DNA of 49,217 nt from Pseudomonadota bacterium. Its GTDB lineage: Bacteria > Pseudomonadota > Alphaproteobacteria > UBA2136 > JASBTF01. Below the pieces are notes generated by a model. That model was not told the origin of the DNA, ran no database searches, and was given only the letters and a program-made list of their open reading frames with translations. The stretch covers positions 1-49,217 of the forward strand of contig JASBTF010000002.1 in NCBI GenBank assembly GCA_030148545.1. Reading direction: 5' to 3'. Positions 1 to 18,027 of the stretch are shown in pieces (within the stretch, counting starts at the first letter, position 1; each line of letters begins with the position of its first letter). Made by a program: the position numbers and the translations under genes.

Positions 1-3000
1 ATATTTTCTAATTGGGCAAGTTCGGCTGCAGTTAGGGTGGTATCGCTCACACGTTGCACCACTGTTGGCACATTGGTAAGGCCATACCAGTCGAGGCTGC
101 TGGCGGTTACGTTAGTTAGGGCTGAACCGTCACCGCTAAAGGCTGTTGCTGTAATGGTGCTTGCTGCTTCTACACCACCGTTGGCAAAAATAACGCCATC
201 AATTGTTTGGGTGCCTGATACATTTAAGCCACCAGTAATAGTGAGCGTACCATCCACCAAGGCATCGCCTGTGGTGTTCAAGGTTGTTACGGTAGCTGCT
301 GCTGGTACGTTAGCACCAATGACAGTGCCATCAATAGCGCCGCCGTTAATGTCCACCGTGGCTGCAGTGAGTGTACCGCCACCAAAACCTGCGTTACCGT
401 TTACAGTGAGGCCGGTTAGCGTGCCAAGGCTGGTCACATTTGGTTGGGCCGCAGTTTGCAGTGTACCAGTAAGGTTGGTAGCTAAAATACTTGGTGCCTG
501 CACGCTGGTGGTTGCTGTAATAGCACCACTTAGCTGCAAGCCTGCAGTGCTCAATGTGCCGTAACGGGCGCCTTCAAGGTCAAACGCTACAACGCCAGCG
601 CCTACACCATTATCAATCACGGTTACACTGCTATCGTCAGCATAAATACTAGTACCATCAAAGGTTTGGCTGCTGCCGGTAATGGCAATACCATCGGCAT
701 ATATGGTACCACTAATGTTGGCTTGGTCGGCAGCTACGGTGCCTACTACTTGCAATTCAAAGTCGGGCGATTCGGTGCCAATACCTACGTTACCGCCCAT
801 AATGGCCATCACATTAGCATCGGAAACTGTGGTGCCTGATTGGTCATCCAGCGCAATACCAAAGCTGTTATTACCACTTACGGTAATGCCCTGGCCAAGT
901 GCCACACTACGTGTGCCTTGTGCACGGTTACTATCACCCAGTGCAATGCCGTAATCACCATCGGCCTGTGTGTCGTAACCTAAACCTATACTATAGTCGC
1001 CCATGTTTTCATCATTCCACTGGGCGCCGCTTACAGCACCAGCACGGAACGCTGATTTGTTCGGGAAGAACACCAAGCGTGTACCCGCACCTTCTAAGCT
1101 ACTTGGTAGGGTGGTTTGCGCCACATCACCAGGGTTAATGGCTGGCAGTACACCAAATACCTTACGAGCTAACACACGCTGGGTGGTCAGCTGCAACATA
1201 GAGTCATCATCTACCGCTAGGTTAATCACACCTGTGCCGCTGTCGGTCACACGTACTTCGGAGTCATCCTGCTGAATAACGCTCTCGTTACCAGAAACAG
1301 CTAAGCGCTGCCACGCAGCACCGTTACAATATTCAACCCCACCGCCGCTCGACGTGCTGTAGCGAATTGCACCACTGAGGCTTAGGTCGCTACAATCTTC
1401 GCCGCCGTCAGCAATCATCAACGTGCCGCTTACTTGCAATGCAGTAACACTGTTTGTAATACCAATACCAACTCTATCGGTTGAAAGGTCGGCAAAGATA
1501 ACACCGCCGAGGTTCATGTAATTTGTTGTGTTGGCACTTGGTACATCTGCACCAGCACCTAGCAAGATATTATTACCGCCATCATCTAAAGTAAGGCCTG
1601 CTTGGTGACCAATAATAACATTGCTGGAACCTGTTGTGAGACCAAAGCCCGAGCCAGCACCAATCAGAATATTATTGCTGTAGCTGTTAGCCGCCGTACC
1701 AATACCCGCTGCATTACCAATAACCACGTTGTCGGCACCACTTTGGTTTTGGAAACCAGCTTGATAACCAATACCCACATTACCAGAACCACTACTGTTA
1801 GCACCCAAAGCAGCACGACCCAATGCTACGTTGTTAGCACCAGTATTATTAGTAGTAAGCGCCGCATAACCCACAGCGGTGTTCGCGTTACCTGCATTTA
1901 CAGCACCTGCTGCACCACCAACCAACACGTTTTGCTGACCGTTAGTACTGATACCCACACCAACTTGTAGGTTATTGGTGCCTTCGTTATCTAAAATAGT
2001 GTTACCGCCAATGGCGTAGCTGGTGGTGGTATCAATACGACCGGCGACATCCAGCTGGTCGTCCGCAGCGTTGGTACCAATCGCTACATTACCCGTTTGC
2101 TTATAAATAAGGTTAGCTGCACCCTTGGTCCAGTTTTGTGCCTCAGATTCCCAGTCACCTGAAACACTATTAAACACAATTACTTCATCATCGTTTGGTG
2201 CGGCAGCACTCACATTGCCCAGATCATCCAGCATGATAGGGTCAGCGGCACTACCTGCATCGGCAGTACAGTTCAGGCGGGTGCCATCGAAGGTCAGAAC
2301 ATGGTCGGCGGCACAAGCAACAGTAAGGTTGGTAGAGGCGTCAATCTTGGCCCAGGTTTGCACTTCTGGGTCTAGCTCGTTACCTGGTACCCAAGTAGAA
2401 CCGTTGTAACGCAAAATACTGGTACCACCGGCACCGGAGGTGTTTACGTCGGTCATGTCGCTCACAACAGGGGCGCGGTCTACCCAGTTGCTGCCATCGT
2501 AGTACAAGAAATCTCCACTCGCGGCTGAACTAATGTTCACATCGTTCAGGTCGTTCATTTCAATGTCAAAGCTGTTACTAGAAAGCTCACCATCAATAGC
2601 GATATCGCCAGTGATACGTGCATTACCATCTACGTACAAACGGTAACTACCCGGTGTGTTACCAATACCTACGTTACCACCGTCAAAAATTGGGGCACCG
2701 TCACAAATCACCTGCGTACCATCGGAGTAACACATGTTGGTAGCCGTTAATGTGCCTACCTCTGGGTCTTTTTCCGCATGAGTTACCCAGCCGCTACCAT
2801 CGTACATCAGCACGTCATCAACAGCTGGAGCAGTAGTATCTAGGTCTACATCACCAAGCTCACCAAGCAAAATAGCACGGCCTGGACCACCAATATCTGG
2901 CTGACATTCCCACACCTCGTCGGTGTCGTTCCACATCAGTTTTTCAGTATCGGTACAGAAAATAGGTGCATCGCGGTTACAAATCACGTTGGTGCCGTCG

Positions 3001-3680
3001 TTGTAACACCATTTGCCATCTTCACGTACGGTAATGGTTGGGTCTACCTCAACCTCTACCCCTGCATCGTCAGTTACACAGCTAAATTCGTTACCACTTG
3101 CCTTTAAAACCTCCTTCAGGCCACAACTTGGTAGCGGGGTTTTAGCAAAATCTTCAACGGTTGGGTCGACTTCTTCCAACAGACCAAGGTCAACGCGACA
3201 CTCAAACCCATCGCCACTACCATTGGTGGTTAGTACCTGAGCGCCAGTACAGTTAGGGAGAGGTGTTTTAGCAAACTCAAGTACCGTTGGGTCAATCTCC
3301 GCGGCAATACCTTCATCTTCCGCACAAATAAAGCGCACACCGTTGGTACGTAGCACCTGCCCCGGTGCACAAACAGGGAGAGAACTTTTTGCAAAGTCCA
3401 TAACAGTTGGGTCGATCTCGCTATCACAAACCCAGCTATCGCCATCCCAGCGCAGCTTATTGCCACTACCAGTACAGGCGGAAATTTCTTCAAATGCATG
3501 GGGTTCAATACGTTCGACTTCTTCTTGGAGAACGCCAATATCGGACTCAGCACGCGTAACGCGCGCATCCTGACGTGCGTTTTGCAACCCACGCCCACCA
3601 CTCTGGGTGAAAAAAGCCTCCTGCGCAGCGGCACTCTGGCCGAGCAACAAGAGTATAGCGATGATGAGGTTTTTCCTCAC
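1..3680 (-). CDS. Large exported fibre/adhesin-like protein, C-terminus outside window
   Basis: An uninterrupted minus-strand frame of about 1,226 codons runs off the left edge. I start it at GTG 3680, preceded by a GGAGG-type ribosome site and followed by a clear signal peptide (MRKNLIIAILLLLG..., cleavage near AAAQ). After a short coiled-coil-like stretch come three cysteine-bearing repeats with the motif DPTVxxFAKxxLPxC. Further on are beta-rich repeats of NTAVGYAAL and NNVALGRAAL type, then YadA-head-like repeats (YSIGLG, YGIALG, SVALG). Near the edge is GDGSALTNVTA, typical of phage-tail-fibre-like bacterial proteins that end in a peptidase S74 (endosialidase chaperone) domain. That domain would lie outside the window, so the family call is inference. 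Likely role: a trimeric surface or secreted fibre. Codons are regular throughout with no frameshift. Confidence 0.8.
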   Translation of the reverse strand, partial: MRKNLIIAILLLLGQSAAAQEAFFTQSGGRGLQNARQDARVTRAESDIGVLQEEVERIEPHAFEEISACTGSGNKLRWDGDSWVCDSEIDPTVMDFAKSSLPVCAPGQVLRTNGVRFICAEDEGIAAEIDPTVLEFAKTPLPNCTGAQVLTTNGSGDGFECRVDLGLLEEVDPTVEDFAKTPLPSCGLKEVLKASGNEFSCVTDDAGVEVEVDPTITVREDGKWCYNDGTNVICNRDAPIFCTDTEKLMWNDTDEVWECQPDIGGPGRAILLGELGDVDLDTTAPAVDDVLMYDGSGWVTHAEKDPEVGTLTATNMCYSDGTQVICDGAPIFDGGNVGIGNTPGSYRLYVDGNARITGDIAIDGELSSNSFDIEMNDLNDVNISSAASGDFLYYDGSNWVDRAPVVSDMTDVNTSGAGGTSILRYNGSTWVPGNELDPEVQTWAKIDASTNLTVACAADHVLTFDGTRLNCTADAGSAADPIMLDDLGNVSAAAPNDDEVIVFNSVSGDWESEAQNWTKGAANLIYKQTGNVAIGTNAADDQLDVAGRIDTTTSYAIGGNTILDNEGTNNLQVGVGISTNGQQNVLVGGAAGAVNAGNANTAVGYAALTTNNTGANNVALGRAALGANSSGSGNVGIGYQAGFQNQSGADNVVIGNAAGIGTAANSYSNNILIGAGSGFGLTTGSSNVIIGHQAGLTLDDGGNNILLGAGADVPSANTTNYMNLGGVIFADLSTDRVGIGITNSVTALQVSGTLMIADGGEDCSDLSLSGAIRYSTSSGGGVEYCNGAAWQRLAVSGNESVIQQDDSEVRVTDSGTGVINLAVDDDSMLQLTTQRVLARKVFGVLPAINPGDVAQTTLPSSLEGAGTRLVFFPNKSAFRAGAVSGAQWNDENMGDYSIGLGYDTQADGDYGIALGDSNRAQGTRSVALGQGITVSGNNSFGIALDDQSGTTVSDANVMAIMGGNVGIGTESPDFELQVVGTVAADQANISGTIYADGIAITGSSQTFDGTSIYADDSSVTVIDNGVGAGVVAFDLEGARYGTLSTAGLQLSGAITATTSVQAPSILATNLTGTLQTAAQPNVTSLGTLTGLTVNGNAGFGGGTLTAATVDINGGAIDGTVIGANVPAAATVTTLNTTGDALVDGTLTITGGLNVSGTQTIDGVIFANGGVEAASTITATAFSGDGSALTNVTASSLDWYGLTNVPTVVQRVSDTTLTAAELAQLEN

Positions 3681-3874
3681 TCTCCCTCCGAATATTTAAC
3701 TGCAGCTTTATTCTTATTGGACGCTGCACGACTTTATACTGACAGGAAACAGTCTATTATAGCCAGTACTTCCCCGCCTCGCTGCCTAGTTGAAAGGCAA
3801 AAAAATAGCCACCTGTGCTTTTTGCGCATCTATTTTATGAATACAGCTTGACCCAAAACGCTAAATCCGTTTGA
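3681..3874. other. Divergent intergenic region between fibre gene and wecB
   Basis: This 194-base gap separates two divergently transcribed genes and so must hold both promoters. A TTGACC box lies near 3848, but I see no convincing -10 at the right spacing. A small ACTG...CAGT hairpin lies around 3738-3753. No gene is visible. Confidence 0.4.
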
Positions 3875-10791: not shown

Positions 10792-11439
10792 TTGACACAC
10801 GAAGCTCCTAAAATAACCACAACAATAAGGCCAACAACTAAGGAAATTGCTGTGAGCTTGCTTGACGAAATTGTGCAGCTGTTGGGACACCAACAAGATT
10901 TTAGCACCGACCGTGTGCTAGACGTTATTTTGGCCAAACTACGCCGCCACACTATGGCCGAAGCCGGTAGCATTTTTATTGCCCGCCCTGCTGGTACCGA
11001 CTGCCACGAGCTAACCGCCATGGCACTACATAACGATGCTGTGCCGCTAGAACCCGCTCAGTTTACCATGCCGATTGATTTGGTTTCTATTGTTGGTTAC
11101 GTAGCTTCCACCGCTGAAGTGCTAGAAATTGACGATGTGTATGACCTACCCCTGGATGCACCGTACAGCTTTAACAACGCATTTGACCAAAAACACGGCT
11201 ACAACACCAAATCTATGGTGGCGTTCCCGTTGCTGAATTTCCAAAACAAGGTGGTTGGTGCTGTACAGCTGATGAACCACATTAAAGAAATGGATGACGG
11301 GGTACCACGTTATGGTAGTTTCCCGCTCTCTACCATTGATGACATTAAGAGCGTGATGACAATGTTAGGTGTCATTGTAGAATCGGTTGACTTACGCAAC
11401 GAGATTCAGCGCTTACGCCAGGAACATGGCGCTGCATAA
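10792..11439 (+). CDS. GAF-domain protein, first gene of the FecR/cyclase operon
   Basis: A cytoplasmic 215-residue protein occupied by one GAF domain: a leading helix (LLDEIVQLL), AEAGSIFIARP, then SIVGYVASTAEVLEIDDVYDLP, TKSMVAFPLLN and VVGAVQLMN. These are the classic small-molecule-sensing GAF signatures. No output domain is fused. I prefer TTG 10792, which has GAGG five bases upstream; GTG 10753 is the alternative and adds 13 residues. The stop overlaps the next gene by 14 bases, implying co-translation. GAF domains often bind cyclic nucleotides, and a cyclase is encoded three genes downstream, but binding here is inference. Confidence 0.82.
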   Translation: MTHEAPKITTTIRPTTKEIAVSLLDEIVQLLGHQQDFSTDRVLDVILAKLRRHTMAEAGSIFIARPAGTDCHELTAMALHNDAVPLEPAQFTMPIDLVSIVGYVASTAEVLEIDDVYDLPLDAPYSFNNAFDQKHGYNTKSMVAFPLLNFQNKVVGAVQLMNHIKEMDDGVPRYGSFPLSTIDDIKSVMTMLGVIVESVDLRNEIQRLRQEHGAA

Positions 11440-12745
11440 AAGCCTTTTGGCAGCCAGCGCTGCCCTACTGGTTACCCTGCCCACCCTGGCGCAGGATGTT
11501 TCCGCCACCACTGCTGTTGAGCCACTAGCCCCACAAGAGCAACTGGCCGAGCTATTTACCCAAATCCGTGAAAACCCTAAAGACCTTAAGGCTAACTTTG
11601 CCTATGGCCAGCTGGCTTACAAAATGGGCAAATACGACGAAGCCATGGCCGCCTATGAGCGGATGCTGATTATTAACTCCGACCTACCACGGGTAAAGCT
11701 AGAGCTAGGTTTGGTGCACATGGCACTCAACAACGATGCCAAGGCTGAAGAGCTGTTTAACGAAGTAGCAGCAGGCAACCCACCCGAAAATGTGCAGAAA
11801 AATATTGATACCGTTTTAGCCGAGCTACGCAAACGCCAAGTAAAACACAAGCTAGGTGGCGCGGTGATTACAGGTATTAACTTTGACAGCAACGCCAACG
11901 CCGCCGCCAGTAGTGGTGAGGTAGACCTACTTGGCGTGAGTATTCCGCTGGGAAGCAACTCCCAAAAGGCGAGTGATGAACACCGCTATGCCGCACTAAG
12001 CTTGCACCACAGTTACCGCCTACCACTGCAAGGAAAGCAGGAGTGGGTTACCGATGGATTGCTCTATAAAACAGACCAAAGCAGCATGGGCAACCTAGAT
12101 ACCACGCTGAAAAACATTGGGAGCGGCCCAGTGTTTACCTTACCCACATGGAAAAGTGAGTTTGGGCTAAAATACACCTATACCGATATTAACCTTGCCC
12201 GGGCCGACTACCAAATTAGCCGCCGCTACAGTGGCCACTGGAAATACACCCTACACCCCAAAGTGCAAGTACAGTTAGCACTAGGACACGAAGTACGCCG
12301 CTACCGCAATACCGATAGTGCCACCACTAACGAACTACGTAACGGACAAGCAACCGACGCCACACTTACCACCCGCTTTGCAATGACTCCTAAAGATATG
12401 CTGAGCATTGCGATTGGGCGCACACAGGTAAATACACAAGTTGCCTATTACGATAATACACAAGACGCACTAACCATTAGCTACATGCGGCAGCTCCCTA
12501 AAAACGTGATGATGACGCTCAGCATGGGGCACACCGTAACAGGGTATGATGATGTAGAAACACTGGTAAACCCAAACACGGTACGCCAAGACCACCAACG
12601 CTCTTACGGGATTAGCTTTATGCGTCCTCTATGGAAAGGCATTGTAGGTTCTGCAGGTTATACATGGCGCGATGTAGACTCTAATATTCAAAATTATACC
12701 TACACCAACGAGCGCTGGTCATTCTCGCTGACCAAAGGGTTCTGA
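11426..12745 (+). CDS. TPR plus outer-membrane beta-barrel protein, Slam/type XI secretion-like (DUF560)
   Basis: Signal peptide MALHKSLLAASAALLVTLPTLA is followed by a periplasmic helical part with two TPR-like repeats (about 35-110: NFAYGQLAYKMGKYDEA, LGLVHMALNNDAKAEELF). A long beta-rich C-terminal half has alternating aromatic strands and ends in phenylalanine (SFSLTKGF), as outer-membrane barrels do. The transition GAVITGINFDSNANAA resembles the start of the DUF560 barrel. Slam (surface lipoprotein assembly modulator) and other type XI OMPs share this TPR-barrel plan and export TbpB-like substrates. The next gene encodes a TbpB-like barrel, which strongly supports the match. Start ATG 11426 fits the signal peptide. 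A generic TPR/porin protein is the alternative. Confidence 0.72.
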   Translation: MALHKSLLAASAALLVTLPTLAQDVSATTAVEPLAPQEQLAELFTQIRENPKDLKANFAYGQLAYKMGKYDEAMAAYERMLIINSDLPRVKLELGLVHMALNNDAKAEELFNEVAAGNPPENVQKNIDTVLAELRKRQVKHKLGGAVITGINFDSNANAAASSGEVDLLGVSIPLGSNSQKASDEHRYAALSLHHSYRLPLQGKQEWVTDGLLYKTDQSSMGNLDTTLKNIGSGPVFTLPTWKSEFGLKYTYTDINLARADYQISRRYSGHWKYTLHPKVQVQLALGHEVRRYRNTDSATTNELRNGQATDATLTTRFAMTPKDMLSIAIGRTQVNTQVAYYDNTQDALTISYMRQLPKNVMMTLSMGHTVTGYDDVETLVNPNTVRQDHQRSYGISFMRPLWKGIVGSAGYTWRDVDSNIQNYTYTNERWSFSLTKGF

Positions 12746-12804
12746 TGATGCAGTTTTTTACTTTTGCCCACCCCCATAAGCATCAGAACAACGGGACTAA
12801 ACCC

Positions 12805-15800
12805 ATGCGTAAGCTATTGTTATTTGCACTGCTGATTTTAACCGCCACACCGCTATGGGCGGCAGAGAAAATTGGTATTGTTTCGGCCGTACGCGGTGAA
12901 GCTTTTGCCATAAATGATGCTGGCGAAAAACTACCGCTGGAGATTCAATCTCCCGTATTTGCAGGACAAGAAATTATCACCAGCGAAAACACGCGCGTGC
13001 AGCTTATTTTGGAAGATGACAGCGTTTATACTATTGGTCATAATGCCGCACTTACGCTTGATGAATTTGTTTACGACCCAAGCACCAATAAAGGTAAGAG
13101 TGTGGTGGGCTCGGTACGCGGGGTAATGAAGTTTGTTACCGGTAAAATTGCCAAAGAAAACCCTAAAAACGTAAGCGTTAAAACACCATTTGCCACCATT
13201 GGGGTACGTGGCTCTGGTGGTATTGTACAGGTACAACCAAACGGCCAAACTTTGGTTGGGCTTACCCAATGTTGTTTAGATGTTAGCGCCAATGGTAGCG
13301 ATGCCCCACCGGTACCGCTAGATAATGTAAACAGCTTTACACGCGTGGATAACCCACAACAACCTCCCACACCACCAGCACCCATGACACCTGAAATTAC
13401 TGCCAACCTAAACGGTGCACTGGGCGAAAGCGAGGGCGACGAGGCCGAAGGTGATGAAGGCGGTGCAAACGAACCAGCTCCTGAAGCAGAACAAGAAGAG
13501 CAAGGCGAGCAAGAACAAAAACCTGAACAACCTGCCGCTGAAGAAGGTGACAATGGTGAAGGCAGTGAAGATGGTAATAACCCACCACCAGCCAAACGCG
13601 ATGAACCCGCTGGCGAACCAAATGACGATGGTGGTAACGAACCTGCTGCCGAACCCCGTGGTGAACCCAAAGGCGAACAAGGTGAACCGCAGCCGCGTGG
13701 CCCAGAAAACGCACCTGAAGGTGAACAACAAGCCAATAACCCAGAGCCACAACAACGTGGCGAGGCACCCCAGCCTACTGCGCGTACAGAAGACGGCAAC
13801 CAGCCACCAGCACCGCGCCGTGCCGCTGCGCCACAACCAAACCAACCACAACAGCCAACTGGTAACGCACCACCGCCGCCACAGCCTGCGGCAAACACAC
13901 CACCACCGGCTCCTGTAAACACCGCAGCCCCTGCGCCAGCGCCTGTACCTGTGCCACCACCACCGACCGACTTAGGGCTTACCAACGTGCCACTAGCAGC
14001 ACCAGAACCGGTAATTGCACCCATTACACTGGAGCAACCAGTTGTTTTAGATAGTGCACTTACCAATGTAGACACCAGCCAAGTTAACCAAGACCAAGTT
14101 GTTGAAAACAAAGACGATTTTTTGGACCAAAGCGCCAACTTTACCATGAATGGTTTGTATGTACGCCGCTCGGCGGGGGCTAATGCCTCGCAAGATGAGT
14201 CGGGCCGTATTGAAGCCGGACGCCTAAGCGGTGGTGGTTTTGCCACCCGCTTTACCCCGCTAGACAGTGGCGGCACCCCCATTACCACCGATGAGTTTAA
14301 AGGTGTGCTCCCTAACGCACCTCTCAACGGGCGCTTTAACGTGCAACCATTCCTATTTGAAAACCATACCCTAACCGGCGAAGGGTATGCCGCAGGTAAT
14401 GGCGATATGTACTTTTACGATCTCACCACCAGTACTGGTGACCAGCTCTCGTTTGTGGTGGGTAACCGCCTAACGGGCAGCCAGCTTCCAACAGCTGGGC
14501 AAAGCAACTATGCATGGATACCTGACCCACTGGCCAATAACGCTGGTTTCTTCCAGAGTGGTCAACTAGATGAACTGGCCGATGCCAACGCACGTACCAG
14601 TGGCGACCTTGGCTTGCTTATTGATTGGGATTTAGGCGGCTGGATGAGCGCTGACTTATACCTACATGATGATGGCAACCGCATTTTACCACGCTTGAGC
14701 GTTGGTTTTGGTGACGTAGATAGCAGCGCCAACAACAGTAACTTGCTCACAGGTGATACCTACCTATGGACCTTAGCCGATGGTGGCGATGCAGGCACTG
14801 CTAAAACCGACTTTGTGTTTGGTAGTGGTGGCGATGTAACCGGGCTGACCATGGAACTGGGCAGTGGTACCGATAAAATTATGCAAATTGCTGTAGAGCA
14901 AGGCCCAACTGACCGCGGCCAAGATTTGTTAGATGCACCAACAACCAACAGCTCGCTCTCGAGCCACCGTGGTTTTATGGCTGGGCATTTACGTTACGAA
15001 GATGCAGGCGGGCATAAATATGCCGCTCTCACAACATCTAACGGTAGTAATAAAATGAACCTCATTCGCAACGCGACCACCGGAGAGGTAGGTGGTTTTG
15101 CACAACTAAATGTGGTTGATGCCCCTAACGACAATATTGATCTACACAGCTTAACGCTCTACGCCGGTGAGCACGGCATTAGCGGTAAAGATGAAGGCAC
15201 AAGCGCCTTGGTAAGCAACCGCGTATTTGTGATGGAAGCAACCGCCGCAAGCTACGATGATTCTGGTGCTGACCCAACTTTCCAAAGTGCTGCTGTTGAT
15301 GGCTTTGCCATCAGCGAATTTGCAACCGACGCCCTGTGTGCAGACTGTCAACACAGCCAATGGGGTGTATGGGCGGTAGATATCACTCGCGATAGCGGTA
15401 ATGCCTATATAGATACAGCACTGCTACCGTTTGTAGAAGGCCAGCTTGCCAGCTCTGGCGATGTTGCTGCACGTAATGGTGTAACTGTAAATTATAGTGG
15501 TGATATGTTTGGTAGCGTACATAACCGCACCACCAATGCCCTTACCCACCATACTGGCGATTTCACCCTAGATGGCACCTTTGGCACAGGCTTTACCTTT
15601 GATGGGGAACTAGGCGGCTACGATATTGATGCCACCATTACCCATGGTAGTGGCACCAACTCCTTTAATGCTACTGGATTTCAGGTAGATAGCCAAACAG
15701 CCACAACAAGTGCTATTCATGGTGCCTTCTTTGGTGCGGGTGCAACCGAGGTGGGTGGTAACTTCCACTTTATTGACCCGAACGATGCCAACATTAACGC

Positions 15801-15828
15801 CACCGGTGTTTTCCATGGTGCTGAATAA
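12805..15828 (+). CDS. FecR-domain protein with acidic/proline linker and TbpB-like C-terminal barrel
   Basis: An exported protein of about 1,007 aa. A signal peptide (MRKLLLFALLILTATPLWA, cleaved at AWA-like site; no lipobox) precedes a FecR domain, about 22-160 (VSAVRGEAFAIN, LEDDSVYTIGHNAALTLDEF, SVKTPFATIGVRG). Next is a very acidic, then proline-rich, linker (about 195-395). A central beta-rich region follows. The final ~110 residues carry GAFFGAGATEVGGNF, matching the G-x-F-Y/F-G-x-x-A-x-E-x-G-G signature of TbpB-type beta-barrels. FecR domains normally relay or sense in the periplasm; TbpB barrels are Slam cargo. ATG 12805 starts at the signal peptide. ATG 12745, which overlaps the previous stop, would add 20 residues and could be used through coupling. 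The ligand is unknown. Confidence 0.78.
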   Translation: MRKLLLFALLILTATPLWAAEKIGIVSAVRGEAFAINDAGEKLPLEIQSPVFAGQEIITSENTRVQLILEDDSVYTIGHNAALTLDEFVYDPSTNKGKSVVGSVRGVMKFVTGKIAKENPKNVSVKTPFATIGVRGSGGIVQVQPNGQTLVGLTQCCLDVSANGSDAPPVPLDNVNSFTRVDNPQQPPTPPAPMTPEITANLNGALGESEGDEAEGDEGGANEPAPEAEQEEQGEQEQKPEQPAAEEGDNGEGSEDGNNPPPAKRDEPAGEPNDDGGNEPAAEPRGEPKGEQGEPQPRGPENAPEGEQQANNPEPQQRGEAPQPTARTEDGNQPPAPRRAAAPQPNQPQQPTGNAPPPPQPAANTPPPAPVNTAAPAPAPVPVPPPPTDLGLTNVPLAAPEPVIAPITLEQPVVLDSALTNVDTSQVNQDQVVENKDDFLDQSANFTMNGLYVRRSAGANASQDESGRIEAGRLSGGGFATRFTPLDSGGTPITTDEFKGVLPNAPLNGRFNVQPFLFENHTLTGEGYAAGNGDMYFYDLTTSTGDQLSFVVGNRLTGSQLPTAGQSNYAWIPDPLANNAGFFQSGQLDELADANARTSGDLGLLIDWDLGGWMSADLYLHDDGNRILPRLSVGFGDVDSSANNSNLLTGDTYLWTLADGGDAGTAKTDFVFGSGGDVTGLTMELGSGTDKIMQIAVEQGPTDRGQDLLDAPTTNSSLSSHRGFMAGHLRYEDAGGHKYAALTTSNGSNKMNLIRNATTGEVGGFAQLNVVDAPNDNIDLHSLTLYAGEHGISGKDEGTSALVSNRVFVMEATAASYDDSGADPTFQSAAVDGFAISEFATDALCADCQHSQWGVWAVDITRDSGNAYIDTALLPFVEGQLASSGDVAARNGVTVNYSGDMFGSVHNRTTNALTHHTGDFTLDGTFGTGFTFDGELGGYDIDATITHGSGTNSFNATGFQVDSQTATTSAIHGAFFGAGATEVGGNFHFIDPNDANINATGVFHGAE

Positions 15829-15852
15829 TAAAAACAATATGTTCACCCCAAC

Positions 15853-18027
15853 ATGGCGCAGGGCCAATTAGTACGCACGCTTAGTAGCTGGGTAATGCAC
15901 GCCTTGCCATGGCTGGTTTTGCTCGGCTTGCTGATGATGCAGCAAAACCCGCCGCACATGGTGCGCATGCTACAGCTTAAAACGTTTGATACCTACCAGC
16001 AGCTATGGCCGCGCGAGCTACCAGAAGACCCACCCGTATATGTGGTAGATGCCGATGAAAAAAGCTTGGATGCTTTGGGTCAATGGCCTTGGCCACGCAG
16101 CATTTATGCTGAATTGACCGATAAAATTTTGCAAGCTGGCGCCGTAGCTGTTGGTTACGATATTCTGTTTGCCGAGCCCGACCGCACTGCGCCACAACGC
16201 ATTAGCCAACACTGGCCCACCACACCAGCGCTAGAGCAGCAGTTGCAAGTTTTGCCCGACCCCGATGATGCACTAGAAAACGCCATTCATAACAAACCAG
16301 TTGTGCTTGGGTTTACCTTTGCTTTTGGCCATACCGAGGCCGCAGACGACAGTGTGAATTTTCAGCCACCTGTGCCCATGGCATTACCACAGCATGCCTA
16401 CCCATGGCTGCCCACCGCCAGCCGTGCTATTCGCAACCTCTCAGGGCTAGAAGATAAAGCCACAGGCATGGGTTGGTTTGGTTATATTCCTGACCCTGAC
16501 AACATTGTGCGCCGCGTACCAACCATGGTGCGTTTTGGTGAACATGCTTTTCCACCGCTATCGCTAGAACTACTGCGCTTAGGGCTCAACAGTCGCCAAC
16601 TGGCCGGCCGTGCGGATGAAGGCGGTATGCAGGCCGTAAAAGTGGGCAACTACGTATTACCAACCGATGCACATGGGTTGTTCTGGCTAAAATATCGCCC
16701 GTTTAGCGACAAGATTTATATTTCCGCAAGCGATGTTATGGATGGCACCGTAGGCGCCGAAACTTTGCAAAACAAACTGGTGCTGATGGGCACCAGCGCC
16801 ATGGGCTTGCTAGATTTGCGAACCACACCGCTAGAGTCCGCCATTCCGGGGGTGGATGTTCATGTACAAATTATTGAGACTATTTTAGCGCAAGATTTTA
16901 TCCGCCGGCCAAACTGGCTACCCACTGCTGAACTGTTTTTTGTGCTGCTGGTTGGTGCGCTGATGATTATTACTATTGAGCGCTTTGGCGCTTTTTCCGC
17001 AGCGCTTGGTTTTGTGGCTATTACCGCCGCTGTGTTGAGCTCTAGCATTTACTTTTTTATCAATAACGGGTTACTACTAGATGCCACCTACCCCTTGCTG
17101 GCCCTACTGGTTATTTATCTGCTGCAAACCGTGCTTAAATACCGCCGTGAGGAAGCGCAACGTCGGCAAATTAAAGGGACGTTCGAGCAATATTTATCAC
17201 CCACATTGGTTGGCCAGCTGGCCGACCACCCAGAACAGCTTACCCTTGGCGGGGAACAAAAAGAGCTCACACTTTTATTTAGCGATATTCGCGGATTCAC
17301 CACACTGAGCGAAGGTTTTGCTGCGGAGGAACTCACTAACTTTATTAACGAATACCTCACCCCGATGACAGATATTATCCTTGAGCAGCAGGGGACGATT
17401 GATAAATACATGGGCGACGCCATTATGGCGTTTTGGAACGCCCCGCTAGATGTACCCAACCATGCCCAACAGTCCGTTACCGCAGCCCTTATTATGTTAG
17501 AAAAACTGGCTGAAATGAACAACACTTGGCAACAAAAAGGGATGCCAAAAATTGACGTGGGTATTGGTATCCACACCGGTGAGAGCTGTGTGGGGAACAT
17601 GGGGAGCGACCAACGCTTTGACTATACCGTACTGGGCGATGCGGTGAACTTGGCCAGCCGCCTGGAAGGCAGCAGTAAGTATTATGGCCTACCGCTCATT
17701 ATTAGTAGTGATACTGTGGCCCAGCTGGATGAAAACTTAGTAACGATCCCGATTGACCGCGTGCAAGTGAAAGGCAAAACCGAACCGGTGGATGTGTTTA
17801 CCGTGCTCAGCCGCACGGCCGACCACAACACCAAAGCCGATGCTGATAGCATGCATAAGGCACTAGAGCTATTCCGCGCCCGCAAGTGGGACGACGCCTT
17901 AAGCTGCATTGAACAGCTAGAGCACCTGCCAACAATTCAAGCACTTTACCGCAAGCGCATTGCTGAGTTCAAAAAAAACCCACCACCACCTGAATGGAAT
18001 GGTACTACCGAACGCAGGTCTAAATAA
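15853..18027 (+). CDS. CHASE2-domain class III adenylate/guanylate cyclase
   Basis: N-terminal transmembrane helix (about 12-28), then an extracytoplasmic CHASE2 sensor (about 35-350: VYVVDADEKSLDALGQWPWPRS, AVGYDILFAEPDR, LVLMGTSAMGL). Three closely spaced transmembrane helices (about 360-425) and a cytoplasmic class III cyclase domain (about 470-640) follow. Catalytic residues are visible: the metal-binding aspartates Asp478 (FSDIRGFT) and Asp522 (YMGDAIMAFW), Lys518 in the base-recognition position, Asp596 and Asn599 in GDAVNLASRLE, and Arg604. The Lys/Asp pair favours ATP, so cAMP is likely. It starts 25 bases after the FecR-like gene and closes the operon. A charged, Pro-rich tail follows the cyclase domain. 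Confidence 0.93.
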   Translation: MAQGQLVRTLSSWVMHALPWLVLLGLLMMQQNPPHMVRMLQLKTFDTYQQLWPRELPEDPPVYVVDADEKSLDALGQWPWPRSIYAELTDKILQAGAVAVGYDILFAEPDRTAPQRISQHWPTTPALEQQLQVLPDPDDALENAIHNKPVVLGFTFAFGHTEAADDSVNFQPPVPMALPQHAYPWLPTASRAIRNLSGLEDKATGMGWFGYIPDPDNIVRRVPTMVRFGEHAFPPLSLELLRLGLNSRQLAGRADEGGMQAVKVGNYVLPTDAHGLFWLKYRPFSDKIYISASDVMDGTVGAETLQNKLVLMGTSAMGLLDLRTTPLESAIPGVDVHVQIIETILAQDFIRRPNWLPTAELFFVLLVGALMIITIERFGAFSAALGFVAITAAVLSSSIYFFINNGLLLDATYPLLALLVIYLLQTVLKYRREEAQRRQIKGTFEQYLSPTLVGQLADHPEQLTLGGEQKELTLLFSDIRGFTTLSEGFAAEELTNFINEYLTPMTDIILEQQGTIDKYMGDAIMAFWNAPLDVPNHAQQSVTAALIMLEKLAEMNNTWQQKGMPKIDVGIGIHTGESCVGNMGSDQRFDYTVLGDAVNLASRLEGSSKYYGLPLIISSDTVAQLDENLVTIPIDRVQVKGKTEPVDVFTVLSRTADHNTKADADSMHKALELFRARKWDDALSCIEQLEHLPTIQALYRKRIAEFKKNPPPPEWNGTTERRSK

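Follow-up and report, generated by a model that had tools for sequence, protein, structure and literature searches.

A putative surface-to-cAMP locus in which a type-11-secretion-like outer-membrane protein adjoins a FecR-barrel protein and a CHASE2 cyclase

Four same-strand open reading frames (ORFs) lie tightly packed at positions 10792-18027 (+) of the window, which is the whole stretch of 49,217 nucleotides that was analyzed. They encode, in order, a GAF protein (10792..11439, +), a SlipAM/DUF560-like outer-membrane protein (11426..12745, +), a FecR-TbpB-type fusion protein of 1007 aa (12805..15828, +), and a protein with the plan CHASE2-transmembrane-class III adenylate cyclase (15853..18027, +). 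According to ORF calling, the first two genes overlap by 14 bp, and gaps of 59 bp and 24 bp separate the second gene from the third and the third from the fourth, so that the coordinates agree with the original prediction of four genes packed with overlaps or gaps of at most 59 bases. The SlipAM-like and FecR ORFs probably start at the ATG codons at 11426 and 12805, respectively, and longer mechanical ORFs extend upstream of both. Promoter and terminator counts were not above those of shuffles. With 1.14 Mb in three contigs and a completeness of 86%, the source genome (G000), that of an alphaproteobacterium, is small; it contains a single match each to SlipAM, CHASE2, and class III cyclase.

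Elsewhere in the window, a large minus-strand ORF (3-3695, ~1230 aa), which is truncated by the window start, contains near-repeats such as LEFAKTPLPNC.GAQVLTTN. In loci L022 (5395-7395), L023 (11369-13312), L026 (7567-9396), and L029 (1852-3699), a long membrane-transporter-like ORF is located directly upstream of the GAF gene. These four ORFs, all from relatives, have a common C-terminal motif (GPGGYKYLD..GLPLN), and the window has no such ORF.

The second protein comprises a signal peptide, a TPR domain (residues 36-138), and a barrel (residues 141-439). It matches Pfam SlipAM (PF04575) at 36.3 bits against a cut-off of 22 (6e-9), in addition to TPRs, and the match to TPR_Slam (27.5 bits, 4.4e-6) falls below the cut-off of 35.2; within the exporter clade defined below, PF04575 is matched by 18/54 members. 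The AlphaFold2 model (pLDDT 93.5) consists of the TPR domain and 14 long barrel strands, and it was reported that T11SS (type 11 secretion) proteins have 14 strands versus 16 in PgaA-type polysaccharide exporters (PMC8406197). Foldseek returned OmpG, BcsC, and PelB for this model and did not separate it from them; since the solved structures returned include no Slam, Foldseek alone cannot name the protein an exporter. The BcsC and PelB matches, together with the inclusion of PgaA homologues in PF04575 (PMC8406197), would suit a protein that handles exopolysaccharide, like the TPR and barrel proteins PgaA or BcsC. This explanation is considered very unlikely, given the T11SS-like strand number and the absence of recognizable polysaccharide genes beside the exporter in the ORF list, as read by eye. 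With PF04575 above its cut-off and a 14-strand model, the predicted Slam-like plan of TPRs plus outer-membrane barrel holds, and by profile and model the protein belongs to the SlipAM/DUF560 (type 11 secretion) outer-membrane family, with a predicted export function.

The third protein carries a FecR domain at residues 22-181 (12868..13347, +; model pLDDT ~93), which matches Pfam FecR (PF04773) above the cut-off (3.1e-7); by Foldseek, the N-terminal part of the model matches the signalling domain of PupR, a member of the FecR family (6ovk, rmsd 2.9). It is followed by a linker rich in Pro, Glu, Ala, and Gln (residues 208-436; 13426..14112, +), whose composition and pLDDT <50 indicate disorder, and then by a beta-rich C-terminal half (residues 447-1007; 14143..15825, +). 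The signal peptide, judged by eye, is of the Sec type with an AxA-like end and no Cys, i.e., without a lipobox. Ordinary Sec signals are likewise found on FecR-barrel proteins, and canonical cargo in the surveyed genomes often has a lipobox. Classical FecR anti-sigma proteins are characterized by a cytoplasmic anti-sigma N-terminus, a membrane helix, and a FecI partner. The window protein does not fit this plan, as its FecR domain comes directly after the signal peptide, and no sigma-factor gene was recognized in the window's ORF list read by eye. The N-terminal part also resembles NF033682, the domain of LapA-type retention modules that keeps a secreted protein in the envelope, but this NCBIfam match (1.4e-8, 35.1 bits) is below the curated cut-off of 50, and LapA relies on type I secretion.

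The C-terminal half ends in a cargo-type barrel (residues ~850-1007) that was recognized by Foldseek, a family profile, and hhalign. With Pfam TbpB_B_D the single sequence scores 21.9 bits (2.7e-4), short of the cut-off of 26, and its C-terminus matches NCBIfam slam_lipo at 9e-8, also below the cut-off. A PDB sequence search with the FecR protein alone was uninformative, and family profiles were used instead. A profile of 24 related C-termini found NHBA (1.2e-11), TbpB (1.8e-9), fHbp (1.1e-5), and also LbpB among PDB sequences, and in a profile-profile comparison by hhalign the barrel matched nine canonical cargo proteins with an E-value of 1.8e-16. Foldseek of the AlphaFold model returned TbpB first (3.4e-9), then LbpB, fHbp, HphA, and NHBA, each of them a known or presumed Slam/T11SS cargo. 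Because the comparison with TbpB gave low global TM-scores (0.13-0.26), the claim is limited to the barrel and the beta-rich character and does not extend to the exact two-lobe TbpB fold; superposition on the NHBA barrel gave a TM-score of 0.65. With this limit, profiles and model alike identify the C-terminal end as a TbpB/fHbp/NHBA-type barrel, homologous to canonical T11SS cargo. The architecture originally proposed for the third protein, an N-terminal FecR domain and a C-terminal TbpB-type signature, is therefore confirmed by Pfam, the family profile, and Foldseek, the signature motif GAFFGAGATEVGGNF being located at residues 973-987.

A second motif, CxxC..WGxWA, occupies residues 845-857. 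Its CxxC (residues 845-848), just before WGxWA, is conserved in the six closest FecR-barrel proteins, and a Cys-Cys pair at the end of the FecR domain (residues 156-157) is invariant in 6 orthologues. The window protein has no other cysteines, and these four could form a disulfide, metal, or redox link.

With regard to the fourth protein, the matches to CHASE2 (6.4e-56) and Guanylate_cyc (6.7e-23) both exceed the Pfam cut-offs and are the only ones to these families in the genome. Alignment to Pseudomonas CyaB (3r5g) showed that the catalytic residues D478, D522, K518, T592, N599, and R603 are intact, so that metal, adenine, and transition-state residues are all kept. By homology, the protein is a CHASE2 class III adenylate cyclase with complete catalytic residues, as had been proposed. 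Profile matches thus exist for all four families named in the original prediction (PF04575, the TbpB barrel, FecR, and CHASE2), with that to TbpB being sub-threshold in the single sequence.

The GAF protein (Pfam GAF, 6.6e-9, above the cut-off), whose gene also heads the operon in relatives, is a stand-alone domain in which no signal peptide was seen. Its nearest solved structures in a PDB comparison are cyclic-nucleotide-binding GAF domains, namely those of CyaB2, PDE5, and PDE2 (1ykd, 2.9e-11; PDE5, 1.1e-10). Because its closest likeness is to cAMP- or cGMP-binding GAF domains, it may read the cyclase product cAMP. It was also considered that the GAF protein is the sole cAMP reader, since no CRP-type proteins were found in the source genome, but this absence may reflect the incompleteness of a genome only 86% complete, and the idea is weakened by the presence of CRP-type proteins in operon-bearing relatives.

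The closest described system is NsrA-CyaK of Sinorhizobium, of which the window appears as a split, exporter-based version. In the S. meliloti megaplasmid record, nsrA is located immediately upstream of cyaK, and a Pfam scan detected FecR (66-160) followed by TPRs (378-590) in NsrA, and CHASE2 plus a cyclase domain in CyaK. The NsrA barrel was placed at 600-1200 (PMC7529298), and NsrA and CyaK are both required for an external protein signal to raise cAMP (PMC7529298; PMC13001267). NsrA-CyaK (and CyaD1/D2) thus resemble the window in that FecR, TPRs, and an outer-membrane barrel are encoded beside a CHASE2 cyclase. However, NsrA is one 1200-aa chain without a TbpB-type barrel, whereas the window has two genes, a SlipAM-type barrel, and a FecR protein with a T11SS-cargo end; when the SLM profile was compared with NsrA by hhalign, the TPRs alone aligned (probability 62.5%) and the barrels did not. 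Since NsrA naturally fuses parts that are separate in the window, it can be argued that the FecR protein, the TPR-barrel protein, and the CHASE2 cyclase act in one pathway.

The gene order GAF, exporter, FecR-barrel, cyclase is shared by four families of the order, represented by the window, G002/G007, G004, and G005, and the full operon also occurs in another order (G196); protein identity across the conserved operons is 27-50%. In family f4 (G003, G008), the operon is reduced to GAF, exporter, and CHASE2, and both genomes encode a FecR-barrel protein at another site. The full exporter is divergent from a CHASE2 cyclase (L277, L278) in two MAGs with a Rickettsiales label, whose FecR-barrel gene lies elsewhere, directly downstream of a TPR-only exporter copy (L129 7492-7890, L175 7486-7923) with a signal peptide and TPRs but no barrel. 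All genomes of the order with this exporter type (7/7) also encode the FecR-barrel protein; in family f2 that protein is found in 0/11 genomes, and the SlipAM matches seen in two of these eleven are only weak. Because f2 is one clade, this order-level co-occurrence represents few independent events. FecR-exporter pairs, mostly with CHASE2, were also detected beyond the class, in genomes or MAGs under the labels Nitrospirota, Omnitrophota, Elusimicrobia, Desulfoluna, and Betaproteobacteria. In Desulfoluna, the FecR protein has a C-terminal TbpB_B_D barrel (2.2e-5). A plasmid search yielded two weak SlipAM matches.

Across the class, an exporter profile gave matches in 90/385 sampled genomes, whose neighbourhoods were then scanned with purpose-built profiles. 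The matches were divided into 73 loci scoring >=200 bits (the exporter clade) and 25 lower-scoring loci, mostly canonical SlipAM. Of the 73, 50 have a same-strand FecR gene within 300 bases, 55 have FecR and 35 have CHASE2 at up to 6 kb, and 14 have neither; the 25 more distant loci have FecR in 2 and CHASE2 in 0. Co-occurrence is therefore far above chance (FecR 55/73 and CHASE2 35/73 versus 2/25 and 0/25). Since the loci were selected for similarity to a set of exporters that included known linked cases, linkage is somewhat over-represented among the high-scoring loci, but the contrast is still large. The abundance of FecR (146 matches in 115 genomes) does not explain the linkage, since the rough expectation of its touching a given gene is well below 1%. 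In a quick tree, the FecR-type exporter clade stands apart from the canonical clade (SH-aLRT 98), and the neighbour labels are clustered. That the four genes are chance neighbours without joint action is thus hardly credible: nothing was found in its favour, and the conserved gene order, the co-occurrence even in genomes without linkage, and the precedent of a natural fusion in NsrA all stand against it.

At one further locus (L087 1092-4886), the CHASE2 cyclase frame stays open through the exporter gene, which is read in another frame, to give an open frame of 1265 aa. The two genes may overlap only slightly there, or the cyclase may be read from the next start.

The cargo barrel is strictly paired with the exporter. 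It was detected in 29/64 complete FecR proteins adjoining an exporter and in 0/38 not adjoining one (Fisher 1e-7), and among FecR proteins >=600 aa in 27/31 beside an exporter versus 0/21 elsewhere (Fisher 7e-11); these p-values are optimistic because the barrel profile was trained on the exporter-adjacent group and the sequences are related. Two of the 29 barrel-bearing proteins (L129, L175) adjoin a TPR-only exporter copy. Lone cargo proteins that neighbour canonical SlipAM genes in the surveyed loci are picked up by the same profile as well. On the other hand, the profile search detected no cargo barrel in 35/64 complete FecR proteins beside an exporter, and in some of these the FecR domain is followed by just 125-150 residues. 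The exporter must therefore have some barrel-independent role.

Such barrel-less partners are what would be expected if the SlipAM-like protein were itself the receptor. Its loops would sense the ligand, its TPR domain would hold the periplasmic FecR protein, and FecR would signal to CHASE2 with nothing exported, the TbpB-type end remaining periplasmic or plugging the barrel. NsrA, which senses an outside protein via FecR, TPR, and barrel in one chain (PMC7529298), is a model for this arrangement. It leaves unexplained, however, why cargo-type barrels occur on FecR proteins only beside this exporter clade and why they are homologous to known surface cargo, and we regard it as unlikely, albeit deserving of real weight. 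Less probable still is secretion of the entire FecR-barrel protein, released or kept outside as a ligand binder like soluble haemophilin-type cargo, with a merely co-regulated cyclase. A Sec signal peptide without a lipobox is as in soluble T11SS cargo (class: PMC8406197), but FecR is a periplasmic signalling fold, as the PupR match indicates, and would have no role outside, and FecR-exporter-CHASE2 linkage without a barrel is common.

Two additional groups of FecR proteins were noticed. Some exporter-adjacent proteins bear a second conserved beta-rich tail (motif DFGART, alignment A6; e.g., L112 8706-9230 and L088 7572-8096). The suggestion that this tail is a divergent cargo barrel was unsupported (probability 2.8%), with no detectable relation to the TbpB-type barrel. 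In addition, nine loci (L118, L121, L127, L133, L148, L150, L158, L159, and L177) encode proteins of ~1,600 to >2,900 aa that begin with the same FecR-like region and have no member of this exporter family in their vicinity.

Other described systems share parts of this plan. Like T11SS (Slam/DUF560) loci, the window combines a PF04575 14-strand barrel with TPRs and a partner with the cargo's 8-strand C-terminal barrel; unlike T11SS with TbpB, fHbp, NHBA, or haemophilin cargo, its cargo has an unlipidated FecR signalling domain as the N-terminus and a cyclase as partner. FecR and cyclases are not named in the main texts of two T11SS surveys. In Campylobacterota, a cluster of a CHASE2 cyclase, a FecR outer-membrane protein, and a TPR protein was described (PMC9239204), which differs in having a phosphodiesterase in place of GAF and no reported T11SS or cargo barrel. 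A FecR protein also adjoins a CHASE2 sensor in the BiofilmReg operons of Burkholderia (PMC5192318), but these FecR proteins are LysM fusions, output is through a histidine kinase, and no exporter is present. T11SS with barrel cargo and FecR/barrel/CHASE2 signalling each have precedent, and their joining is, as far as checked, new. The earlier remark that no described system with this gene set is known therefore stands for the joined set, which was not found described, and must be qualified for the gene logic, which is precedented by NsrA-CyaK.

The preferred reading, to which we assign a probability of roughly 0.55, is that the locus is a split NsrA-CyaK-type surface-to-cAMP system built around a type-11-secretion-like exporter, with the barrel outside and FecR in the periplasm. 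Briefly, the exporter would recognize the cargo barrel and move the C-terminal half of the FecR protein outside, while the folded FecR domain could not follow and would stay periplasmic, with the 230-residue Pro/Glu-rich linker spanning the outer membrane. An external ligand bound to the exposed beta lobes would then change the FecR end or the FecR-TPR contact, which would act on the periplasmic CHASE2 domain and alter cAMP synthesis. The cAMP may in turn be read by the GAF protein, which is of the cyclic-nucleotide type. Export of the barrel is indirectly suggested by family membership and by the strict barrel/exporter pairing, and the proposal that it is exported with FecR left in the periplasm is weakened by the roughly half of FecR partners that have no barrel. 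The outside-to-cAMP relay is plausible through the experimental precedent of NsrA-CyaK (PMC7529298, PMC13001267). For the barrel-less partners, the exporter may act like NsrA and itself be the receptor, and both roles could coexist in one family.

These observations touch on two questions, namely by what route signals pass the outer membrane where no TonB-dependent receptor is involved and which ligands CHASE2 cyclases answer. Judging from gene neighbourhoods, the pairing of the exporter with a receptor-like FecR protein is widespread. A broader proposal, held tentatively and at somewhat less than even odds, is that a secretion channel serves as the part of a receptor that crosses the membrane: a T11SS exporter would thread a single dedicated client half-way through the outer membrane, with FecR inside and the binding barrel outside, and the tethered protein would control a CHASE2 cyclase. 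Such systems would be widespread in Alphaproteobacteria and would also occur in other phyla. The module would tie type 11 secretion to signalling instead of nutrient capture or host attack, it suggests functions for SlipAM clades without an assigned cargo, and it is a candidate outer-membrane route to CHASE2 cyclases in many alphaproteobacteria.
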